64,000 bases of DNA from an uncultured Roseateles sp. (GTDB taxonomy: Bacteria; Pseudomonadota; Gammaproteobacteria; Burkholderiales; Burkholderiaceae_C): the NCBI RefSeq assembly GCF_945956965.1, contig NZ_CAMFJS010000002.1, forward strand, positions 124,001-188,000, given 5' to 3'. Made by a program: the position numbers and the translations under genes. The notes under the pieces are model-generated. The model searched no databases, was not told the origin of the DNA, and worked only from the letters and a program-made list of their open reading frames with translations. This document shows positions 36,358-47,378 of the stretch, one piece after another (the first letter of the stretch is position 1; each line of letters begins with the position of its first letter).

Positions 36358-38520
36358 TCAGGCCTGCACGCTGCGTAAATCCTGGGCAATGCGCCCGCCC
36401 TGCAGGGCGATGACGCGCTGGGCGGCGGCGATGGTTTCGGGCCGGTGGGCGATGACGATTTTGGTCAGCGGCAACTGGCGGAGTGAGGCGTTGACCTGGC
36501 GTTCTTTGTCCACATCCAGGGCGCTGGTGGCTTCGTCCAGGAACAGGAATTGCGGCTTTTTGTACAGGGCCCGGGCTAGCAGCACGCGCTGGCGCTGACC
36601 GCCGGAGAGGCTGTGGCCCATATCGCCGATGAGGCTCTGAAAGCCCATGGGCATGGCGGCGATGTCCTCGAACACGCAGGCCAGGCGGGCGCATTGCTGC
36701 ACCCAGTCGGCGTCGGCATCGGGGTCGAAGAAGCTGATGTTGTCGGCAATGCTGCCGGCAAAGAGCTGGTCATCCTGCATCACCGTGCCAATGCGCTGGC
36801 GCCAGGCCGCCGTGCCAATCTTCTCCAGCGGCTGCTCACCCAAGAGGATGGCGCCCGACTGCGGCGCGTGGATGCCCAGCATCAGCTTGAGCAAGCTGGT
36901 CTTGCCGCAGCCCGAGGGGCCGATGATGGCGACCGACTCGCCCGGCTCGATGCGCAGCGAGCAATGCGCCAGCACCAGCGGCTCACCATCGGCGTAGCGA
37001 AAGCTGACGTCGCGCAATTCCAGCGCGGCGCTGTCGGGCGGCGCGGCCACCAGGGCTTGCTGCGCGGCTTCGGGCGCCGTCAGCACGATGTCGGCCAGGC
37101 GCTCGCCTTGCAGGCGCAACATGCGCAACTCCACCGTTTTGTCGATCAAGCCGGCCAGGCGCAGGCTGAACTGCTCTTTGTAGGCCAGGAAAGCGAACAA
37201 CATGCCCACCGACAGCTCGCGGTCCAGCACCAGCAAGGCGCCCAGCCAGACGATGGCCACGCGCTCCAGCCCGAACAAGAGCTTGTTGCCCACGCCCATC
37301 CAGAGGTCGAGGCGGCGGATGTGGATGCCCGCATTCATCTGCTCCACCACAAGATTGGCATAGCTGGCGCTGCGCTCGGCCTGGGCGTTGAAGAGCTTGA
37401 TGGCCTGGGCGCCGCGCAGTGATTCAAGAAAATGGCTGTTCTGCCGTGCTTCGTGCACCAGGGCCTCTTCCGAGGCCTCGCGCAGCGGCCTGAAGAAGGC
37501 CCAGCGCAGCCCGGCATAAGCCGCCACGGCCAGCATGGCCACGGCGCTCAGGCGTGGGCTGTAAACCCACATCATGGCCAGCGTCAGCAGCACCATGGCG
37601 CCGTCCAGCAGCGCTTCGGCGAACTGGGTGGAGAAGGCGCGCTGAATCGTCTGCACGCTGCCGAAGCGCGACCAGATATCGCCGATCTGGCGTTTTTCAA
37701 ACCAGTCCAGCGGCAGCCGCATCAGATGCGCAAACACCTGGCTCAGCCACTGCACATTCAGCGTGGCCGAGAGATATAGCACCGCCCAGGAGCGCAACGC
37801 CCCCACACCCACCTGCAAAAGCACCAGCAGGCCAAAGCCCAGCCCCAACGTGACCAGCAGGTCGCGGTCGGCGCTGACCAGCACCCCGTCCACGACCCAT
37901 TGCAGCAAGAAGGGCGACAGCAGGGCTAGCAGCTCCAGCGTCAGGGCCAGGCCCAGAACCATCGCCAGCGAGCGCCGCAGCCCGGTGATCCGCCCCAGCA
38001 ACTGCCGCCAGCGCAGTGGCGCCGGGCGTGGCTGTGGCGCGAAGTCAGCGCCCGCTCGCAACTCCAGCGCGATGCCGGTGAAGTGCTTGGACAAGTCCGC
38101 CAGCTTGAGCCTGCGGCGGCCATGGGCGGGGTCGATGATGTGGGCCTCGTCGCCTTGCACCCGCTCCAGCACCACGAAGTGATTGAAGTCCCAATGCAGG
38201 ATGCAGGGCAGATGCAGCTGGGCCAAATGCGCCGGTTCGGCGCGCAGGGCTCGGCTGGTCAGGCCCAGTTGCGTGGCCATGCGCACCAGATCGGCCATGG
38301 TGGCGCCCTTGAGCGAGAGCGAGAACTGCGTGCGCAACTGGCGCAAATCGCAATGCCGGCCTTGCGCGCTGGCAATCATGGCCAAGCAGGCCAGGCCGCA
38401 TTCGGCGCCCTCGGTCTGCAGAATGACCGGCATTTGGCCGCGGCCGCGCCAGCCCAGGCTCAGGCGTTCCAGAAGGCGGTGCGAGGACGAGGATGAGGGA
38501 GCTTCAGACACGTTGGGCAA
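36358..38520 (-). CDS. CvaB-like peptidase-containing ABC exporter (C39 protease)
   Basis: 720 residues. The N-terminal C39 peptidase cleaves double-glycine leaders: Gln35 and Cys41 (LQTEGAECGLACLAMI), His114 (HWDFNHFVVL), Asp130 (IIDP), numbered from the TTG at 38520. It closely follows the colicin V exporter CvaB pattern. An ABC exporter membrane domain (~165-450) and an intact NBD follow: GPSGCGKTS, LSGGQRQR, FLFLDEATS, IAHRPE. The start is uncertain: TTG 38520 overlaps the adaptor gene by 17 bases, and GTG 38511 is in frame; neither has a strong Shine-Dalgarno. With the adaptor and the double-glycine peptide at 39829-40011 it forms a complete peptide maturation and export unit, apart from an outer-membrane channel. 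Its stop is 7 bases from the convergent EamA stop. Confidence 0.93.
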   Translation of the reverse strand: MPNVSEAPSSSSSHRLLERLSLGWRGRGQMPVILQTEGAECGLACLAMIASAQGRHCDLRQLRTQFSLSLKGATMADLVRMATQLGLTSRALRAEPAHLAQLHLPCILHWDFNHFVVLERVQGDEAHIIDPAHGRRRLKLADLSKHFTGIALELRAGADFAPQPRPAPLRWRQLLGRITGLRRSLAMVLGLALTLELLALLSPFLLQWVVDGVLVSADRDLLVTLGLGFGLLVLLQVGVGALRSWAVLYLSATLNVQWLSQVFAHLMRLPLDWFEKRQIGDIWSRFGSVQTIQRAFSTQFAEALLDGAMVLLTLAMMWVYSPRLSAVAMLAVAAYAGLRWAFFRPLREASEEALVHEARQNSHFLESLRGAQAIKLFNAQAERSASYANLVVEQMNAGIHIRRLDLWMGVGNKLLFGLERVAIVWLGALLVLDRELSVGMLFAFLAYKEQFSLRLAGLIDKTVELRMLRLQGERLADIVLTAPEAAQQALVAAPPDSAALELRDVSFRYADGEPLVLAHCSLRIEPGESVAIIGPSGCGKTSLLKLMLGIHAPQSGAILLGEQPLEKIGTAAWRQRIGTVMQDDQLFAGSIADNISFFDPDADADWVQQCARLACVFEDIAAMPMGFQSLIGDMGHSLSGGQRQRVLLARALYKKPQFLFLDEATSALDVDKERQVNASLRQLPLTKIVIAHRPETIAAAQRVIALQGGRIAQDLRSVQA

Positions 38521-39757
38521 GGCTCAAGATGGGCTCAAAGATCCACTCGATCAGGCGGCGCCGCTCCAGCATCACATCGGCATCCAGCTGCATGCCGGCG
38601 GCCAAAGGCTGGGCCTGGCCGTAGGCCGACACGGTTTGCCGGTCCAGCTTGACGGTGATGCGGTAGAGCGGCTCACTGCCCGGGCCTTGGCTCAGCGCGG
38701 CGGGCAGGTTCAGGCCGGCCAGCTCGGCCGGGCTCAGCGGCGTGCGCGAAACCTGCAAGACGCTGCCGCTTTGCTGGCCGAATTTTTGATAGGGAAAAGC
38801 TTGATAGCGCAGCTGTACCGCCTGCTGCGCGCGCACAAAGCCGACTGCGCTGGAGGGCGCGAACAGCTGCGCCAGCATCTGCGTTTGCGCCGGCAGCAGG
38901 CTGGCCAGTGGCGCGGCGCTGTTGACGCTTTGCCCCGGCTCGGCCTGCAAGGTGGACACAACGCCGTCGCTGGGCGCGCGCAGCACCAAGCGGCGCCGGC
39001 CTTCTGTTTCCAGCCCTTGCTGCTGCAAGGCGGCGAGGTCACGGCTGATCTCGCCTTGCAGCACCTGGCTGCGCAGCGGCAACTCCCGCGCTTGGGCGTC
39101 CACCGTTTCCAGATCACGCTGCAGCGCTTCGCGTTGGCGCTCCAAGGCTTGGGCTTGGGCGCGCAAGCCCAGCAATTCCTCGCGCTTGCTTTGCACCTGG
39201 GCGGTGGAGATGAACTGATCGTTCTTCAAAGCCTCCAGCCGCGCCAGCGCCTCGGCGGCCAGGCTCAGGCGTTCGGCATGCAGGGCGCGCTCGTCCTGCA
39301 ACTGGCGCAGCTCGCGCTGCAAGCCTAGGCGCCGCTGCGCCAGGGCGCTTTGCTGGGTTTCCAGCAAGCGCTGTTGTTGCTCGGCCGTCTGCCCCAGGCT
39401 TTGCTGGCGGGCGCTGAGGTTTTTGGCGATGTCCTCCGGCGCCTGGCTGGCGCTGTCCAGGGCCAGCACAAACAGCACATCCCCTTGCTTGACCTGCTGG
39501 CCTTCGCTCACCAGGCGGCTCAGCACCGTGGCGGTTTGCGGCGCATTGATGCGCAAGACGCCGCGGTCGGGCACCAGGTAGCCGCTGACCCGCGCCTTGC
39601 GGGTGTACTCGGCCGTGCTCAAAAACACGCCGACCAAGAACAAACTGCCCACGGCCGCAGCGGTGAGCAGTTGGAGCGACAGCGGTGGCAGGACTTGCAC
39701 CTGACCCAGCCAGCCTTTTTGCTCTTGGCCAGCCAGGGCTTCGGGTCTGAAAAGCAT
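38504..39757 (-). CDS. CvaA-like HlyD-family adaptor for peptide export
   Basis: 417 residues. It starts MLFRPEAL, as CvaA-type adaptors do, with one membrane helix (~28-48), a lipoyl half (VLRINAPQTATVLSRLVSEGQQVKQGD), a ~150-residue Gln/Arg-rich coiled coil, the second lipoyl half (APSDGVVSTLQAEPGQSV) and a barrel containing YQAFPYQKFGQQSG and VSRTPLS, then LEAGM-like and LERRRLIEW segments typical of the CvaA/microcin adaptor branch. AGGT precedes the ATG by 4 bases. It bridges the CvaB-like ABC protein to a TolC-like channel. It lies 71 bases downstream of the peptide gene; that gap holds only a weak AGCG/CGCT stem followed by T5, which could attenuate readthrough. Confidence 0.92.
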   Translation of the reverse strand: MLFRPEALAGQEQKGWLGQVQVLPPLSLQLLTAAAVGSLFLVGVFLSTAEYTRKARVSGYLVPDRGVLRINAPQTATVLSRLVSEGQQVKQGDVLFVLALDSASQAPEDIAKNLSARQQSLGQTAEQQQRLLETQQSALAQRRLGLQRELRQLQDERALHAERLSLAAEALARLEALKNDQFISTAQVQSKREELLGLRAQAQALERQREALQRDLETVDAQARELPLRSQVLQGEISRDLAALQQQGLETEGRRRLVLRAPSDGVVSTLQAEPGQSVNSAAPLASLLPAQTQMLAQLFAPSSAVGFVRAQQAVQLRYQAFPYQKFGQQSGSVLQVSRTPLSPAELAGLNLPAALSQGPGSEPLYRITVKLDRQTVSAYGQAQPLAAGMQLDADVMLERRRLIEWIFEPILSLAQRV

Positions 39758-39828: not shown

Positions 39829-40011
39829 TTACCAGCCGCCGCGCGGTGTCGGCGCTTCGACTTGCACAGCAAGTTCGGTGGTGGGTTCAGTAATCCAGCC
39901 GCCGCGTGGGGTGCCGCCCGAAACCTGTTGCAGCAAGTCAAGGCTGATTTCCACAGGGCCAGCTTCGGTGTTCTTGATGATTGCGACAGGGGCTTGGTCT
40001 TGGGTGTTCAT
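39829..40011 (-). CDS. Double-glycine leader peptide with twin TPRGGW core (candidate microcin or pheromone)
   Basis: 60 residues from ATG 40011. The leader is 33 residues, ends ISLDLLQQVSGG, and matches class II double-glycine leaders (hydrophobic residues at -4, -7, -12; Gly at -1 and -2). The predicted core of 27 residues begins with TPRGGW, continues with an acidic Thr/Glu/Val stretch, and ends with TPRGGW at the C-terminus. It has no Cys, Ser or Lys and only two basic residues. The longer in-frame start at 40077 would run through the upstream palindrome and is less likely. The peptide gene lies between a LuxR-type regulator and CvaAB-like export genes on the same strand, so it is the likely substrate. 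Function (antibacterial, signalling or RiPP precursor) is not determined; no modification enzyme is nearby. Confidence 0.85.
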   Translation of the reverse strand: MNTQDQAPVAIIKNTEAGPVEISLDLLQQVSGGTPRGGWITEPTTELAVQVEAPTPRGGW

Positions 40012-40033: not shown

Positions 40034-40047
40034 CGCTCAATTGAGCG
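40034..40047. promoter_or_regulatory. Perfect 14-bp palindrome in the peptide 5' region
   Basis: CGCTCAATTGAGCG, 22 bases before the peptide start. It could be an operator or an RNA hairpin in the leader; the short loop-free centre favours a DNA-binding site. Confidence 0.45.
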
Positions 40048-40087
40048 CATGAATTGAATTTCAACAGACCGATGCAATTGAGGTAAC

Positions 40088-40116
40088 TGTCAACTCTGAC
40101 ACTTGTCAGTGTGACA
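40088..40116. promoter_or_regulatory. Cluster of TGTCA/TGACA half-sites, putative LuxR-type box, with -35 box
   Basis: Four alternating half-sites: TGTCA 40088-40092, TGACA 40097-40101, TGTCA 40104-40108, TGACA 40112-40116. The middle pair forms the palindrome CTGACACTTGTCAG (40096-40109). On the minus strand a consensus -35 TTGACA (40093-40088) follows the palindrome after two bases, the arrangement of LuxR-activated promoters; the matching -10 is poor, as expected for an activator-dependent promoter. The 10-mer ACACTTGTCA (40099-40108) recurs at 40969-40978 upstream of the regulator gene. Confidence 0.5.
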
Positions 40117-40146: not shown

Positions 40147-40866
40147 CTATCGGATCAAGCCAAAACGCAGTGCCTTCAGCACCGCCTGATGTTTGGTCGT
40201 GCAATCGAGTTTCCGCATTGCGTTGCTGATGTGAAGAACCGCTGTTCTTTCCGAAATACTCAGGATGGTTCCGACTTCCCAGGCGGTCTTGCCATCCATC
40301 GTCCAGCGCAAAGCTTCAAGTTCGCGAGGCGTGAGATGCATTTTGGGCGATAAAGCCCCCTGAGATTTTGGCAAGACTACCCGCCACGCAGCCTCTTGCG
40401 CGTAAACGGCAAAGAGTTGGAGGTCGGCAACCAGTCGAGTCAATTCGCCAGAATCGCTCGGCAGTGGATCGCTTCGATCCATGCCAAACATGAAATGGCG
40501 ACCCTCTGGCATGTGGAGAGCAAGTGCAATGCCGGTTCTGTAGCCAAACTGTGCTTGTTCTTCCCAAAGATCAGCCTGACCGCAAGACGCGTAGGTGTTC
40601 TGATTCCAGATGATGGGGACGCTCTGGCGTTTGCAATGCTGGGTGACTGGGCAACGCCGCCAGGTGTCGCGATCCTGGAAATGGGTCGAGTAGGAATCCG
40701 GCGTGTTGTCTACCGTTTCAAAGTCGGAAACGCCCAAGGTGTGGTCGACCACCACCGTGGCAGACACCGTCGCAAATCCCAGACCTTGCGCGAAGCGAAT
40801 GATTTCGCTTCGGAACTGATCGCGGGATTGGGCTTCGAGTACCGATTGGTATCCCCCCTGCAGCAT
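40147..40866 (-). CDS. LuxR-type regulator with autoinducer-binding domain (no luxI nearby)
   Basis: 239 residues. Residues ~1-160 fit an autoinducer-binding fold (LGFATVSATV, TPDSYSTHFQ, HCKRQSVPIIW, FGYRTGIALALHMPEG), and 175-239 a LuxR HTH (LTPRELEALRW, WEVGTILSISERTAVLHISNAMRKL, QAVLKALRFGLI). Compared with LasR/TraR, the conserved Trp and Asp of the ligand pocket appear replaced: 'DP' aligns with Cys-Pro (RRCPV) and the first Trp with Tyr, while the Pro-Ile-x-Trp motif is kept. A changed ligand, or none, is therefore possible. It lies 135 bases upstream of the double-glycine peptide on the same strand, making it the likely controller of that operon. Confidence 0.88.
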   Translation of the reverse strand: MLQGGYQSVLEAQSRDQFRSEIIRFAQGLGFATVSATVVVDHTLGVSDFETVDNTPDSYSTHFQDRDTWRRCPVTQHCKRQSVPIIWNQNTYASCGQADLWEEQAQFGYRTGIALALHMPEGRHFMFGMDRSDPLPSDSGELTRLVADLQLFAVYAQEAAWRVVLPKSQGALSPKMHLTPRELEALRWTMDGKTAWEVGTILSISERTAVLHISNAMRKLDCTTKHQAVLKALRFGLIR

Positions 40867-41489: not shown

Positions 41490-43445
41490 TCAGCATTTGA
41501 TCCACAGCGTGACGCGGGTGCCGACGCCGAGTTCGCTCTCGATCTGCATATGCCCGCCCATCAGATCCAGCAATTCGCGGGCGATGCTGACGCCCAGGCC
41601 TGTGCCGGGAATGTGACCGGAGGTGTCGACTCGGAAAAAGCGTTCGCCCATGCGCGCCAGGCTTTCTGCGGACAGGCCAACGCCACGGTCTTCAACCTGA
41701 ACGCCGAAATGCAGGCGACCTGGCTGGCCCGTCGCGGCAAGACCGGCCTCATTGGCGTTGCCGAATGGGCTGCTGTGCGCCATTGCCTTGCTGGGGCTGG
41801 GTCGTTGGGCTTGCAATAAGCGCAGTGTCACCGGGCCGCCTTCGGGCGAGTATTTGTAGGCATTGGACAAAGTGCCCAGCAAGATCTGTTGCATCTTTTG
41901 ACGGTCGATGCACACCAGCATGGGCGGGTGTCCGCCCTCGCGGGTTTCCAGCTGTGGCTGTTCGCGGCCTTGTGGGGCTTTGAAATCGTGGACCGTTTCG
42001 GCCACCACGGTGGCCAGATCCAAGGTCTCGAACTTGAAGTCACTGGCGCCGCGCGCCTCGATGCGGGCCAGGTCCAGCAGTTCGTTGAGGATATTGACCA
42101 TCAACTGGCATTGGCGGTAGACACGCGCCAGCATGGATTGACGCTTGGCCTCGCTCATCTCGCGTTCCAGCATCAACTCGACGTAGCCAAAAATGCTGGT
42201 CATCGGTGTGCGCAGCTCATGCGCGGCCAGGGCCAGGAACTCTGACTTCATGCGGTCCAACTCATGTTGGCGCGTCACGTCACCGACATACAAGACCCGG
42301 CTGACCCCGGCCGATTGGCTGAGCTGGCCGCTCAGCGCCAGGACGCGAGGGCGGTCGCCGATCAAACTCAGGGTGGTCTGGCTGGCTGGTTTGGGCGCCA
42401 TGGGGGTCTCTGCGGGGGCGAAGCAAGCGGCCAGTCCGGCGAAATCTTTGGCGTCCTGGGCGCGCGCCAGCAGCAGGGTCTCCAGCCGCGCAGCCGTTTG
42501 GCCCAGCAGCTCTTCGGCCTTCAGGCCGGTCAAGTCGAGAAAGGCTTGATTGGCGAAGCGCACCAGGCCGTGCTGATCGAAGGTGAGCAGGCCGTCGCGG
42601 CTGAGCGCGAAGATGGCGCTCAGTTGCTCGTTCTTCTCTTCCATCTGCGCCTTGTGGGTTTGCTGGCGCTGCATGCTGTCTTGCAGCACGATCATTTGCT
42701 GAAGCAGCAAGACCGAGGCTTCGTTGAGGGCGCGGCCCAGTTCCACAAACTCAATCGGCCCGGCCTCCACCGGCTGGGTCAGGCCGCGGGCATCGGCCAG
42801 CTCACTGGCGAAGCGGCGGGCATTTTCCAGCGCCCGCATCGGGCGCTTCAGCAGGGCGTGCAGCAAGATCATGCACAAGCCCACCAGCAGCGCCGCCACC
42901 GCCAAGGTTTCGCGCCAGACCTGGGCCTGCACTTCACGCAGGGCTTGCAAGTCATAGTCCAGCTTGACCCAGCCCAAATGCCGCCCGGCGATCACCGGTT
43001 GCCAGACCTCCAGGTGGCTGCCATCGCTGGCAAGTTTGGCGCTGAACAGGGCTTGGCTGGGCAGCACCATGCCGGCGCCATTGCTGGCACTGTGGCTTGG
43101 CTGGGTGGCGGTGGGCCGTCGATGCAGCTGCGCCATGACCTGGCCTTTGAGGCTCAGAATGCTCAACGCCCCCACGCTGTCGAAGCTGGCATAACTTTGA
43201 ATCAAGGCTTGCAGCTCGATATAGCCTCTGTCACTGCGCAGCAATTCCGCTGTGGCCACCGCCAGGCTATGCGCCAGCATGGCGGCCTGTTCGCGCCGGT
43301 CTTGCAGCGCCAGATTGCTTTGCCGTTGCGCCGTGATGGCGCCTTGGATGGCCGTTGCCAAGACCAGCAAGACCGAGACCAGCAACATCAGCCGGTGCTT
43401 GAAATGCCGGGGCCACAGTCCGCTCAGCGCAAGGGTCTCAACCAT
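41490..43445 (-). CDS. Membrane histidine kinase with HAMP-like and PAS domains
   Basis: 651 residues. TM helices near 17-36 and 188-207 enclose a ~150-residue periplasmic part. A HAMP-like linker and coiled coil follow, then PAS (~285-395), HisKA with His409 (AAHELRTPMTS), and HATPase_c with SNAYKYSPEGG, VEDRGVGLS, RFFRVD and GTGLGVSIA. It lacks a receiver domain, and no response regulator lies beside it, so its partner is elsewhere. The ~25-residue SPSKAMAHSS insert between the N box and the G1 box is unusual in position. Transcribed alone on the minus strand. Confidence 0.88.
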   Translation of the reverse strand: MVETLALSGLWPRHFKHRLMLLVSVLLVLATAIQGAITAQRQSNLALQDRREQAAMLAHSLAVATAELLRSDRGYIELQALIQSYASFDSVGALSILSLKGQVMAQLHRRPTATQPSHSASNGAGMVLPSQALFSAKLASDGSHLEVWQPVIAGRHLGWVKLDYDLQALREVQAQVWRETLAVAALLVGLCMILLHALLKRPMRALENARRFASELADARGLTQPVEAGPIEFVELGRALNEASVLLLQQMIVLQDSMQRQQTHKAQMEEKNEQLSAIFALSRDGLLTFDQHGLVRFANQAFLDLTGLKAEELLGQTAARLETLLLARAQDAKDFAGLAACFAPAETPMAPKPASQTTLSLIGDRPRVLALSGQLSQSAGVSRVLYVGDVTRQHELDRMKSEFLALAAHELRTPMTSIFGYVELMLEREMSEAKRQSMLARVYRQCQLMVNILNELLDLARIEARGASDFKFETLDLATVVAETVHDFKAPQGREQPQLETREGGHPPMLVCIDRQKMQQILLGTLSNAYKYSPEGGPVTLRLLQAQRPSPSKAMAHSSPFGNANEAGLAATGQPGRLHFGVQVEDRGVGLSAESLARMGERFFRVDTSGHIPGTGLGVSIARELLDLMGGHMQIESELGVGTRVTLWIKC

Positions 43446-43813: not shown

Positions 43814-45022
43814 CTACTTGGCCACCGCGCCGCGCATTGAGCGCGCCACAAAGATCAGGCTGGCGACCGTCAGCAACAATCCCACCAGCACCCCGGGCAG
43901 CACCTGGGCGGCGCACAGTGCCTCGCCCTTGAGCACCAGCATCATCAAGGTGTTCTGCGCTAGGCCCGGCACCCACAGATACCAGGGCGCGTCGCCGCCC
44001 GGGTTGAGCAGGCTGACCATGGGCGCCAGTGCCACCAAGGTGATCACCAGGGTGCTGCTGGCCTGTGCCTCTTTGAAGCTCTTGGTGCGAATCGCCATCG
44101 CCATCAGCAAGGCGCCGATGCCTGCGGCCAGCGGCAGCTGCAGCAAGAAAAAGACCAGCACCTCGTGGCTGCCGAACTGGAACATGGCTTGCAGACTGTC
44201 ATTGCCCAGCAGCCATTGCGCCGGCAAAAAGCTGAGGTTGGCCAGCATGGCCACCGCCAGCCCCAGGCAGGCCACTGCGCCCCATTTGCCCAGCACCAGG
44301 GCGAACTGTTGCACCGGGTTCATCAACAGCGGCTCCAGCGAGCCGCGCTCGCGCTCACCCGCGGTGCTGTCGAGGGCCGACGTTAGCGCGCCGTACAAGA
44401 CCGCCATGATGATGAACATCGGGATCATGCCGGTGATGCGGGCGGCGCGCGCCTGGGTGCTGGCCAGGTCACGTTCTTCTACCAGCAGCGGCTGCAGCAG
44501 CTCGGTGGAGACGCCGCGCAGCGCCAAGTTGAGCGAAGCGCGCTCGCGGTTGAAGCCGCTGAGCAGGCGTTGGATCGGCGCCATGCCCGCGCCGGCGCGC
44601 TGGTTGGCGCTGTCGCTCACCAGTTCCACCGTGGGCTGCTCGCCGTGCAGCAAGTCTTGCTCAAAGTCCTTGCCGATCACCAGCACCGGCTCCAGCAAGG
44701 TGTTGGCGCGCAGGCCGGCCTCGTAGTCCTTGGGCGCTTCCTTAATGGTGTAGGTCTGGCGTTCGATGTAGTTGCGCAGGGTAGGGGCGTGTTCCATGCC
44801 GGCCACCAGAATCTCGCGCTTATCGGCGCGGGTTTCCAGCGAGGAGATCAGGCCCGAAATTGCTAGCAGCATCAGAGGCCCCATCAGCACGGCGGGCACC
44901 ATCAGGCGCAGCAGGGTGCGGCGGTCGCGCAAGGCATCGATCACCTCTTTGAAGAAGACGACGCGGAAGTTGCGCCAGAGGCCGCTGGCCGGCTTGTTGT
45001 TGTTCTTGTCCTCGGTCCTCAT
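43814..45022 (-). CDS. ABC-2 type permease (NatB-like)
   Basis: 402 residues. TM1 is near 40-60, then a ~150-residue extracytoplasmic domain, then five helices from ~200 to 395, the topology of NatB/YhaP-type ABC-2 permeases. The segment ALTSALDSTAGERERGSLEPLLMNPV is the conserved cytoplasmic coupling region of this family. The start overlaps the ATPase stop by ATGA. With the ATPase it forms an exporter; sodium or a drug is a possible substrate from NatAB-family knowledge, but the substrate cannot be told here. Confidence 0.9.
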   Translation of the reverse strand: MRTEDKNNNKPASGLWRNFRVVFFKEVIDALRDRRTLLRLMVPAVLMGPLMLLAISGLISSLETRADKREILVAGMEHAPTLRNYIERQTYTIKEAPKDYEAGLRANTLLEPVLVIGKDFEQDLLHGEQPTVELVSDSANQRAGAGMAPIQRLLSGFNRERASLNLALRGVSTELLQPLLVEERDLASTQARAARITGMIPMFIIMAVLYGALTSALDSTAGERERGSLEPLLMNPVQQFALVLGKWGAVACLGLAVAMLANLSFLPAQWLLGNDSLQAMFQFGSHEVLVFFLLQLPLAAGIGALLMAMAIRTKSFKEAQASSTLVITLVALAPMVSLLNPGGDAPWYLWVPGLAQNTLMMLVLKGEALCAAQVLPGVLVGLLLTVASLIFVARSMRGAVAK

Positions 45023-45843
45023 GCGGCCACCTCTTCAGAATTGCCAGAAAATGCCAGTTTCACGAACGCGTCTTCGAAGCGGCGCTCACCCGCCAAGTCC
45101 AGCAGCTCGGGCACCGAACCTTCGGCCACGCTGCGGCCTTTGGCCACCACCACCACGTGCTCGCACAGCTGCTCCACCTCTTGCATGATGTGGGTCGAAA
45201 AAATGATGGTCTTGTTGCCGCCCGCAGCGGAGCGCAGATGCCGCAGCGCCTCGCGCAGCGAGCGGGTGGCCAGCACATCGAGGCCGTTGGTGGGCTCGTC
45301 CAGCACGATGTTGGCGGGGTCATGCACCAGGGCACGGGCCAGCGCCGTCTTCATGCGTTCGCCCTGGCTGAAGCCTTCGGCGCGGCGGTCCAGGATGTGG
45401 TTCATGTCGAGCAAACGCGCCAATTCGACGGCACGCGCATTGGCCGCGTCTTGCTCCATGCCTTGCAGGCGGCCGAAGTAGATGATGTTTTCACGCGCCG
45501 TCAGGCGCGGGTAGAGGCCGTGGGCGTCGCCCAGAATGCCCATGCGGGCCAGCGCTTCGCGCGGCTGGCTGGCCACGGCAATGCCGTCCACCGTGATGCG
45601 GCCGCTATCGGGTTGGAACAAGCCGCCGAGCATGCGCAAGGTGGTGGTCTTGCCGGCGCCGTTGGCCCCCAGCAAGCCGGTGATGCGGCCGCTGGGCGCG
45701 ATCACCGTCACATTGCTGACCGCATGCACGATCTGCTTGGGCACGCGCTTCAGCCCCAAGCCCGCGAGCAGGCCTGGCTTGCCGCCGCTAGCCGAGCCAC
45801 CCGGGGCGACGAACTGTTTGCTGACGTTTTCGATCTCGATCAT
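45019..45843 (-). CDS. ABC transporter ATP-binding protein (NatA-like)
   Basis: 274 residues from ATG 45843. Walker A is GANGAGKTT, the signature FSQGERMKTALARAL (a SQGE variant of LSGGQ), Walker B NIVLDEPTNGLD, and the H-loop FSTHIMQEV, all intact. The frame extends upstream to 45999 within the peptidase gene, but ATG 45843 begins the normal fold (MIEIENVSKQF). ATGA overlaps at both ends couple it to the peptidase upstream and the permease downstream. Confidence 0.92.
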   Translation of the reverse strand: MIEIENVSKQFVAPGGSASGGKPGLLAGLGLKRVPKQIVHAVSNVTVIAPSGRITGLLGANGAGKTTTLRMLGGLFQPDSGRITVDGIAVASQPREALARMGILGDAHGLYPRLTARENIIYFGRLQGMEQDAANARAVELARLLDMNHILDRRAEGFSQGERMKTALARALVHDPANIVLDEPTNGLDVLATRSLREALRHLRSAAGGNKTIIFSTHIMQEVEQLCEHVVVVAKGRSVAEGSVPELLDLAGERRFEDAFVKLAFSGNSEEVAA

Positions 45844-47378
45844 GAGGCTTCCTTGGCGGTGGCGGCTGCCTGTTGTTGCTGCTGAACAGGCAGGAAGGCA
45901 GGTGGGCGGGGAATCTTGATGGCGCAGCTGGCGTCCTGGGGCAGGGCGGCGCTGTCGGTTTTGGCGTCGATGAAGCGGAACAGCAGCTCGCGCATGCAAC
46001 CCAGGCCCATCACGCCGTGGCCGGCTTCGGGCACGACGATGTGCTGAGCCTTGGCCCCCAGGGCCTTGGCCGCGCGTTCACCGTGGCGGGGCGGAGTCGC
46101 AGGGTCGGCGCCACCGCTGAGCAGCAAGACCGGCGACTGCGCCGGCGGCATGCTGTAGAAGCCCGGCGGCACGGCTGCGCGAGGCCAGTTCTTGCACACC
46201 TGGGTGTAGAGCTGGGCGTCGTTCAGGCCGAAATCGGCGCCGGGCTTGTCACTCGCTTGGGCCAAGCGCGGCACATCTTCGGCGCACACGACCGAGAAGT
46301 GCATGCCCTCGGCCAGCTTCGTGGCCTTGGCCGAACCCAGGCTGCCGCTCAAACCCAGCAGGCCTTCAAATTGGCCCAGATGCGCGGCGTGAATGGCCGC
46401 AGGCAGGGCGGCTGCCAAGGCCGGTAAGTAAAGCGGGGTGCGCACCGCTTGCAGCAGCTGCGCACGTTCCAGCGTGAAGCGCTCGGCCTGGCCGGTCAGC
46501 GGATGCTTGACGCTGATGCTGCGCGGCAGGCTTTGCAGCAGGCCTTGCCATTCCTGGCGCAACTGGGGGAATTGTTGTGCGCAGCTTTTGTCTTTGGCGC
46601 AGAAGTCCAGCATGGCGTCGAGTGCCGCCTGGCCGTCAACAGAGAAGCTGGCCGGCAAGACCATGTCCGGTGGGGCCACGCCGTCCAGCACCGTGCGCCG
46701 CACCTGGGCCGGGAACTGGCGCTGGTATTCCAGGGCGGCACGGGTGCCGTAGGAGCCACCGATCAGGTTCCACTGCGGTGCGCCCAGGGCCTGGCGCACG
46801 GCCTCGAAGTCTTGCACCGCGATGCTGCTGCTGTACTGGGTCAAATCACCGTGCGGCAGCTGGCTCAACTCAAGCCGGCATTGCTCCAGGCGCTTGAGCA
46901 TGGCGGCTCGGTCCAGCGCTTCGCTCAGCGGCAGCTTGCTGGCATCGGCGCATTGCAGCGGGGCCGACTTGCCGGTGCCGCGTTGGTCGATGAAGACCAG
47001 ATCGCGGCGATTGTTCATGCGTGCCAGGCGAGGCAGCACCATGGGCGCCACGCTGATAGCGCTTTGGCCGGGGCCGCCGGCCAGCATCAGCACCGGGTCG
47101 GGCTGCTTGTTGCGCGCCATGGCCGGCACCACCAGGAAGTGGATGTCGATCTGCGTGCCCTGCGGCTTGCTGGGATCCAGCGGGCGCTTGATGCTGCCGC
47201 ATTGCAATTCGTTGGGCACGCCCTCCACGCGGCAGGCTTGGGTCGTCGTGCGTTCGGCGGTGGCGGCGGGGCTGGCCGTGGCCGCCTGCGCGGCGGCTGC
47301 TGCCATCGTCAGGCTCAGCAGGCCGCTCGTCCAGTGCTGCCGGCCGCGTTGGCGGGCTAGTCTTCTCATGCCATTCAT
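45840..47378 (-). CDS. Exported alpha/beta hydrolase, S33 (tripeptidyl/proline aminopeptidase-like) family
   Basis: 512 residues from ATG 47378, chosen because GGAG lies 9 bases upstream; an in-frame GTG 15 bases earlier is part of that Shine-Dalgarno. A signal peptide covers ~1-33 (TSGLLSLTMAAAAAQAATA). The hydrolase has an oxyanion HGGP-like AGGPGQS, nucleophile in GGSYGTR, acid Asp in SGGADPATP and His in PEAGHGVMG, the last two in a TAP-like C-terminal domain. Four or more Cys suggest disulfides in the periplasm. The family releases N-terminal residues from peptides. Its translational coupling to a NatAB-like exporter is unusual and suggests a shared substrate or stress. Confidence 0.88.
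   Translation of the reverse strand: MNGMRRLARQRGRQHWTSGLLSLTMAAAAAQAATASPAATAERTTTQACRVEGVPNELQCGSIKRPLDPSKPQGTQIDIHFLVVPAMARNKQPDPVLMLAGGPGQSAISVAPMVLPRLARMNNRRDLVFIDQRGTGKSAPLQCADASKLPLSEALDRAAMLKRLEQCRLELSQLPHGDLTQYSSSIAVQDFEAVRQALGAPQWNLIGGSYGTRAALEYQRQFPAQVRRTVLDGVAPPDMVLPASFSVDGQAALDAMLDFCAKDKSCAQQFPQLRQEWQGLLQSLPRSISVKHPLTGQAERFTLERAQLLQAVRTPLYLPALAAALPAAIHAAHLGQFEGLLGLSGSLGSAKATKLAEGMHFSVVCAEDVPRLAQASDKPGADFGLNDAQLYTQVCKNWPRAAVPPGFYSMPPAQSPVLLLSGGADPATPPRHGERAAKALGAKAQHIVVPEAGHGVMGLGCMRELLFRFIDAKTDSAALPQDASCAIKIPRPPAFLPVQQQQQAAATAKEAS

Follow-up and report, generated by a model that had tools for sequence, protein, structure and literature searches.

A putative hexapeptide autoinducer encoded next to a LuxR-family regulator in Roseateles and related Burkholderiales

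The peptide locus of the Roseateles window

The window, by which we mean the whole stretch of 64,000 nucleotides analysed from an uncultured Roseateles sp., carries a short gene for a double-glycine peptide, preceded by a LuxR-type regulator gene and followed by two exporter genes. The order on the minus strand is LuxR, peptide, HlyD and C39-ABC, and the features of the locus are as follows.

40147 to 40866, minus strand: LuxR-type regulator with autoinducer-binding (PF03472, E 4.1e-24) and LuxR helix-turn-helix (PF00196, E 4e-15) domains, the proposed hexapeptide receptor
40087 to 40102, minus strand: lux-box-like dyad, GTGTCAGAGTTGACAG (family consensus CTGTAAGAGtTGACAG; the window copy is off at two of 16 positions)
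40058 to 40067, minus strand: -10-like element, CTGTTGAAAT, 19 bp past the dyad
40034 to 40047, minus strand: short inverted repeat, CGCTC-AATT-GAGCG, recognized by eye in what is presumably the mRNA leader
39829 to 40011, minus strand: peptide precursor of 60 aa (ATG at 40011; leader 40011 to 39913; core 39912 to 39832; stop codon 39831 to 39829)
39895 to 39912, minus strand: first hexapeptide TPRGGW, immediately past the GG cleavage site
39832 to 39849, minus strand: second hexapeptide TPRGGW, at the C-terminal end of the core
38504 to 39757, minus strand: HlyD/CvaA-type membrane fusion protein (Pfam HlyD_3, E 2e-16)
36358 to 38520, minus strand: C39-peptidase ABC exporter of the CvaB type (Peptidase_C39, E 1.1e-36; ABC_membrane, E 9.4e-40; ABC_tran, E 9.4e-32)

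Translation of the window ORF gives a leader, MNTQDQAPVAIIKNTEAGPVEISLDLLQQVSGG, of 33 residues with VSGG at its C-terminal end, and a Cys-free core, TPRGGWITEPTTELAVQVEAPTPRGGW, of 27 residues with TPRGGW at both ends, exactly as a first-pass annotation of this DNA had described them. The two TPRGGW copies differ at two bases, both changes being synonymous. The peptide gene occurs once in its own genome (G000), and the peptide matched no family in Pfam, NCBIfam or PHROGs at E ≤ 1. The same annotation had spoken of CvaA/CvaB-like exporter genes alongside, and the HlyD and C39-ABC genes, downstream on the same strand and with clear Pfam matches, bear this out. For the C39-ABC exporter, a role in cutting the GG leader and exporting the core is proposed. 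The annotated neighbours in the window are the peptide, HlyD and C39-ABC genes together with histidine kinase, ABC-2 pair, EamA and MocR-type genes; since a modifying enzyme is absent among them, the idea of a modified RiPP was set aside.

Words, exporter and promoter across related loci

Homologous precursors were read by eye in 11 of the 18 genus genomes, the window's own included, and nine of these 11 hold two copies of the unit that corresponds to TPRGGW (hereafter the word), one pair being imperfect. This recurrence, together with the synonymous-only differences between the two window copies, argues that the window ORF is not a product of chance. At all 18 peptide loci that were fetched, the LuxR gene lies directly upstream; this set shares 11 genomes with the 80 loci described next. 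A scan of the genome collection with the peptide alone returned no matches because the words vary; the LuxR alignment succeeded and yielded 169 relatives, and the 80 that matched best were retained as named loci. Their titles name Roseateles, Paucibacter, Mitsuaria, Pelomonas, Rhizobacter, Rubrivivax, Methylibium, Piscinibacter, Ideonella, Leptothrix and others. Adding the eight loci found through the peptide (the window and seven more, all with a LuxR gene) gives the 88 loci considered below. The peptide matches L012 to L021 and L044 were judged to be chance on reading by eye.

A small word-bearing ORF, with one to five copies, follows the LuxR gene in 80 of the 80 named loci, six Trp-less cases and several others having been recognized by eye. 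The first-pass annotation had made its reading depend on relatives having a small ORF with conserved PRGGW ends beside CvaAB genes: the ORF is indeed there, but PRGGW is not literally conserved, and what recurs is the frame xPxxxW. PRGGW is thus one among many words, a point which that annotation had overlooked, as it had the lux box and the place of the LuxR gene in the system. There are 49 distinct words in the 88 loci, and the word ends in Trp in 82, of which 81 fit xPxxxW and one has seven residues. Since the search pattern partly fixes P and W, their conservation was not used as evidence. At the six Trp-less loci, L081, L085, L104, L090, L093 and L130, the word is LPRVS, LPRVGGL or LPRIGGL; both copies are alike in the precursors of L081, L085, L104 and L093.

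The number of copies per precursor varies: there is one in 42 loci, two in 42, four in two and five in two. (Three false matches ahead of the start codon, at L057, L103 and L131, were excluded before copy counting, and the L076 precursor was assigned by script, the automatic pick having been in the wrong frame.) Examples are GPNGGW five times in L072, SPKGTW four times in L118, LPRGTW four times in L119 and APKNTW twice in both L048 and L115; among single copies, L096 has LPRGGWTKE immediately after GG, and L061 has TSLPVKGW. Five very short ORFs that end in the word are leaderless (L066, L071, L073, L076 and L117), and L122, with five copies, is without a GG leader.

Within the 46 of 88 precursors that hold more than one copy (two to five), the copies are identical as amino acids in 41. 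The first and last hexamers agree in 37 of 41 six-letter pairs, as against a mean of 2.3 and a maximum of 10 in 20,000 rounds of shuffling between precursors. At the DNA level, 98 synonymous differences at 204 sites separate the copies, as against 12 non-synonymous differences at 621 sites, the latter tally taking in every base change within codons whose residue changed; copy pairs identical in DNA number six of 46. Because the copies mostly differ in codons, recent duplication is inadequate as a cause, and their identity is, on this comparison, accounted for by selection for equal peptides.

The exporter genes lie directly downstream of the peptide gene in 16 of the 18 fetched loci; the other two, L047 (3.9 kb downstream examined) and L049 (9.8 kb), both from the eight loci found through the peptide, have a leader and no exporter within those distances. 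In the named loci, exporter genes adjoin the peptide in 70 of 80, although in L134 this is the start of HlyD only, where the contig ends. Four of the 74 leader-bearing named loci are without an exporter (L106, L110, L118 and L124). Conversely, all six loci with leaderless precursors are missing the exporter while keeping both LuxR and the box, so the exporter travels with the leader and the peptide travels with LuxR.

These six loci without leader and exporter would suit the idea that the peptide is a cofactor of LuxR inside the producer, for self-sensing or as a timer, with export serving its removal and not signalling; the neighbourhood of the locus showed no importer gene, which points the same way. 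We nevertheless consider this unlikely. A leader is present in 74 of the 80 named loci, 70 of which adjoin an exporter (one cut by the contig end), and the genome of the window holds 12 SBP_bac_5 (OppA-like) matches. Furthermore, precursors of secreted pheromones carry multiple copies of identical words, and the multi-copy precursors found here resemble them.

Several other neighbours recur. An ABC-2 permease and ATPase gene pair (43814 to 45849 in the window), upstream of LuxR, recurs in the majority of the 80 named loci, the six without leader and exporter included; it is possibly an alternative exporter, or mere synteny. A PAS-histidine kinase gene likewise lies upstream of LuxR in the window (41490 to 43445), and L023 has two homologues of it in tandem. 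Downstream genes at L073, L106, L117 and L118 look by eye like mnmG, rsmG or parA, and in some genera the locus may lie near the replication origin.

A dyad with the consensus accCTGTAAGAGtTGACAGTt is found between LuxR and peptide in all 88 loci. Its best match reaches at least 11 of 16 positions in 88 of 88 and at least 14 in 82, as against 2.1% of shuffles of those sequences at 11 of 16 and 0 of 4400 at 14 of 16. The -10-like element, gCTGcTgcAAT, has its AAT at a constant offset in 86 of the 88 loci, and one base further in two. From this spacing we infer that the dyad is a lux box over the -35 region, with its centre about 43 bp before the start; the family dyad resembles the lux box of Vibrio fischeri.

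The exact box core, CTGTAAGASNTGACAG, occurs at 55 sites in 53 of 299 family genomes, and its reversed control at none. By eye, 47 of the 55 sites adjoin such a LuxR gene, and one more (L234) adjoins a peptide gene whose LuxR partner falls outside the contig. Since most exact-box sites adjoin such a LuxR gene, the peptide operon looks like the main target of the box. Seven exact boxes in other genomes have neither LuxR nor peptide nearby, and six of these were examined. One, L232 in genome G010, has the exact core at about 3020 (minus-strand count), before the gene of a predicted 940-residue, probably exported protein, which is a possible further target. In G000 itself the exact consensus box is absent; there are 16 box sites at up to two mismatches, as against seven for the control, and inspection of seven of these loci gave no convincing further target.

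The best stems at the position of the inverted repeat average 5.8 over the 88 loci, as against 4.2 in shuffled sequence, and their arm sequences vary; in the window, the best stem of the scan differs from the repeat at 40034 to 40047. Because the stems are stronger and their arms differ, the repeat after the -10 element is perhaps an RNA hairpin or a second operator.

The family sample of 299 genomes from 141 genera contains a LuxR of this subfamily (E ≤ 1e-60) in 81 genomes and 38 genera. The lower-scoring of these include receptors that, by the pattern search, have no peptide (L188, L189 and L191 to L195), and L180, with a close LuxR and neither a peptide nor a box of the usual form, has apparently lost its peptide. 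An order-wide sample gave hits at E ≤ 1e-40 in five of 399 genomes, two from the same family and three distant, and the distant LuxR loci of other families (L150 to L152) showed no such peptide. LuxR genes also occur in arrays of five (L182), four (L183), four or five (L184), three (L185) and two (L186, L187 and L190). By the same pattern search, exactly one member of each array is followed by box and peptide; the remaining members look like receptor-only paralogues, which may listen to foreign words.

No LuxI (PF00765) was found in G000. The same search was positive in two of the 18 genus members and thus works in the genus; these two, G004 and G011, have LuxI homologues elsewhere in the genome in addition to the peptide system. 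Among 272 plasmid records, none covers 80% of the operon, and the five matches listed lie in the exporter part at 63 to 65% identity.

Co-variation of the word with the LuxR pocket

The LuxR protein has the QscR/LasR/SdiA fold, with QscR as the best Foldseek match. Its co-variation with the word was analysed over the 81 loci with six-letter words, the seven of 88 with other word lengths being excluded. LuxR proteins at least 97% alike were thinned for the Mantel and column tests and for the exporter control, and the residue pairings and tree counts refer to all 81 loci, unthinned. In a partial Mantel test on 73 non-redundant pairs, the correlation of word with ligand domain, given the DNA-binding domain, was r = 0.24 (matched in 0 of 2000 permutations), and that of word with DNA-binding domain, given the ligand domain, was 0.05.

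After removal of total LuxR distance, the top LuxR column was A114 for word position 1, Y59 for position 3 (with L100 level), T55 for position 4 and W69 for position 5. These residues correspond to T115, W60, Y56 and A70 of LasR, all of them pocket positions and all on the published LasR pocket list (PMC9654057); the pocket list used in the test, which agrees with the published one, had been fixed ahead of the results. Pocket columns exceeded the other ligand-domain columns (p = 0.003) as well as the DNA-binding columns (p = 0.006). With the word positions pooled, A185 of the DNA-binding domain came first (0.238), slightly over A114, W69 and T55.

Where residue 69 is large (W, M, Y, H or F), word position 5 is Gly in 39 of 39 loci, and where residue 69 is Gly, in 0 of 32; Lys100 is found with Lys or Arg at word position 3 in 0 of 15. 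Phe59 is paired with Lys in 24 of 28 cases, Trp59 with Arg in five of five and Cys114 with Ala in 18 of 23, all over the 81 loci. Such pairs make chemical sense, with complementarity of size and charge at residues 69 and 100. In 13 more peptide loci with LuxR identity below 90%, the rules held unevenly: Gly69 went with a non-Gly residue in three of four and Trp69 with Gly in one of one, and in the same type of test Cys114 went with Ala in three of three and Phe59 with Lys in two of three. Lys100 was paired with Asn in none of three and was without Lys or Arg in three of three.

Counting co-changes on the tree, W69 comes first for word position 5, F63 and then T55 for position 4, Y59, level with T68 and M119, for position 3, and T223, ahead of A114, for position 1. 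As a control, 725 variable columns of HlyD and C39-ABC were taken from 57 matched named loci. Their maxima fall below those of LuxR at position 1 (0.254 vs 0.305), position 4 (0.308 vs 0.467) and position 5 (0.231 vs 0.353); at position 3, an exporter column (0.306) exceeds the best LuxR column (0.207) in the same matched 57.

That exporter column raises the question as to whether the correlations reflect shared ancestry only, with LuxR, peptide and exporter passed on as one unit and clades marked by the correlated residues. In keeping with this, exporter columns do correlate with the word, the non-pocket residues A185 and T223 rank high, and the pairs from the examined genomes all come from one family. 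Yet the column test had total LuxR distance removed, the DNA-binding domain taken in full is nearly without partial signal, tree-based co-change lies above expectation at pocket residues, and residues 69 and 100 show complementarity of size and charge. We regard ancestry alone as very improbable, and co-variation of word and pocket as the preferred reading. An AlphaFold model of LuxR and precursor in tandem gave a good receptor domain and a peptide with pLDDT below 50 that was not docked.

WYDPWG is the motif of AHL sensors (PMC4414361). Over the 88 loci, W57 is present in five and Y61 in 20, D70 in 85, and P71, W85 and G113 in all 88; the window LuxR reads Y-F-C-P-W-G, with Cys in place of D70. 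Because D70, P71, W85 and G113 are largely retained, an AHL-like ligand is possible. The same retention, together with the CvaA/CvaB-type exporter and the double-glycine leader, could speak for a small bacteriocin of the class II microcin type, in which the repeats would be structural and a LuxR solo would switch production on when it senses an AHL or some other outside cue. This is quite improbable, however, since the mature part after GG is a mere 6 to 9 residues in some loci (LPRGGWTKE, TSLPVKGW, APGRRW), some words come from leaderless ORFs of 18 to 20 aa, those leaderless loci retain LuxR without an exporter, and the words co-vary with the LuxR pocket. The first-pass annotation had left two options, a single repeat-ended peptide and a short signal in two copies; copy identity, the copy-number and leaderless variants and the co-variation with the pocket favour the short signal, which would still have to be processed and secreted by the proposed route.

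Proposed mechanism and relation to known systems

Together, these observations point to positive feedback through a LuxR-family receptor whose autoinducer would be a gene-encoded hexapeptide, a reading to which we assign a probability of about 0.8. The C39 transporter and HlyD, judging from the parts present, would remove the double-glycine leader and export the core, which would then be cut into one or more TPRGGW copies. The peptide would re-enter the cell, probably through an oligopeptide permease such as the 12 OppA-like matches might provide. Inside, as the co-variation suggests, TPRGGW would occupy the pocket of the adjacent LuxR instead of an acyl-homoserine lactone, and the loaded LuxR, to go by the position of the box, would switch on the lux-box promoter of the peptide gene and so close the loop. 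As relatives have differing words with matched pockets, the words may be species- or group-specific addresses. A wider proposal, which we put forward tentatively and at somewhat less than even odds, is that of a peptide language within one group of Burkholderiales, with at least 49 words in 88 loci, each read by a LuxR pocket that a few residues would predict, and with peptide-less array LuxRs that hear the words of their neighbours.

RRNPP receptors are TPR proteins of Firmicutes systems such as Rgg-SHP, ComR-XIP and PlcR-PapR. Like these systems, the present one has its propeptide gene adjoining the receptor gene (88 of 88 loci), and word and receptor appear to vary together. Unlike them, its receptor is of the Autoind_bind plus GerE type, no TPR family being among the Pfam matches at E ≤ 1, and it combines a Gram-negative host, a double-glycine leader, a C39 exporter and, in many precursors, repeats of the word. 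Re-import and receptor binding, as in RRNPP, would be the predicted steps here; OppA-like matches are present, and the co-variation points to binding. The short propeptide and the intracellular receptor-regulator as an adjacent pair are described for RRNPP in PMC10075063; PMC9765709 is a further paper on RRNPP, and PMC13220807 a quorum-sensing review of 2026.

With LuxI/LuxR systems, the locus shares the LuxR fold, a lux-box-like dyad at fixed -10 spacing and a presumed autoinduction, the box being assigned by sequence alone. It differs in that its own genome is without a detected LuxI, W57 and Y61 are mostly replaced, and the proposed ligand is a gene-encoded peptide. In being a LuxR solo with an altered AHL motif, the receptor resembles the OryR/PipR solos, which are defined by W57M and Y61W (PMC4414361). 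Here, however, position 57 is Y in 55, F in 28 and W in five of the 88 loci and never M, and position 61 is W in two of 88. OryR and PipR have an exogenous signal and flanking peptidase genes, whereas the present LuxR gene adjoins that of the peptide, whose sequence follows the pocket; proline iminopeptidase, the OryR/PipR neighbour, is absent among the window neighbours. PipR is nonetheless the nearest precedent: it is reported to respond to the tripeptide Ser-His-Ser and to require an ABC peptide transporter (PMC4981722), although a 2023 review gives its ligand as an ethanolamine derivative (PMC10134790).

ComC/BlpC-type pheromones, which signal via membrane histidine kinases, and class II microcins, which kill, share with this system the double-glycine leader and the C39 ABC exporter. 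They differ from it in that LuxR is here the constant partner and the conserved unit is six residues long, many cores measuring only 6 to 12 residues. The parts are thus known ones, and their predicted combination departs on a defining point from each family tried except the microcins, with which the leader and the exporter are shared. Searches of an open-access library, the broad ones covering their top matches, listed no LuxR system whose signal is a gene-encoded peptide; that library extends neither to preprints nor to most subscription journals. We take the system to be a putative new kind of quorum sensing, in which comparison of the loci shows the receptor-word pairing and the chemistry is putative.

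In the textbooks, LuxR proteins sense small lactones, and peptide pheromones that act on cytoplasmic receptors belong to Gram-positive bacteria; if the present reading is true, a LuxR receptor whose signal is a peptide with a gene of its own would unite the two. It would give Gram-negative bacteria an extra class of quorum sensing and would supply ligands for a large group of LuxR solos. With the genome giving both word and pocket, specificity, cross-talk and eavesdropping would be predictable and directly testable, and matched word-receptor pairs could serve as orthogonal sensor parts. Nor would the system be a rarity, the exact box being present in 53 and the subfamily LuxR in 81 of the 299 sampled genomes of the family.
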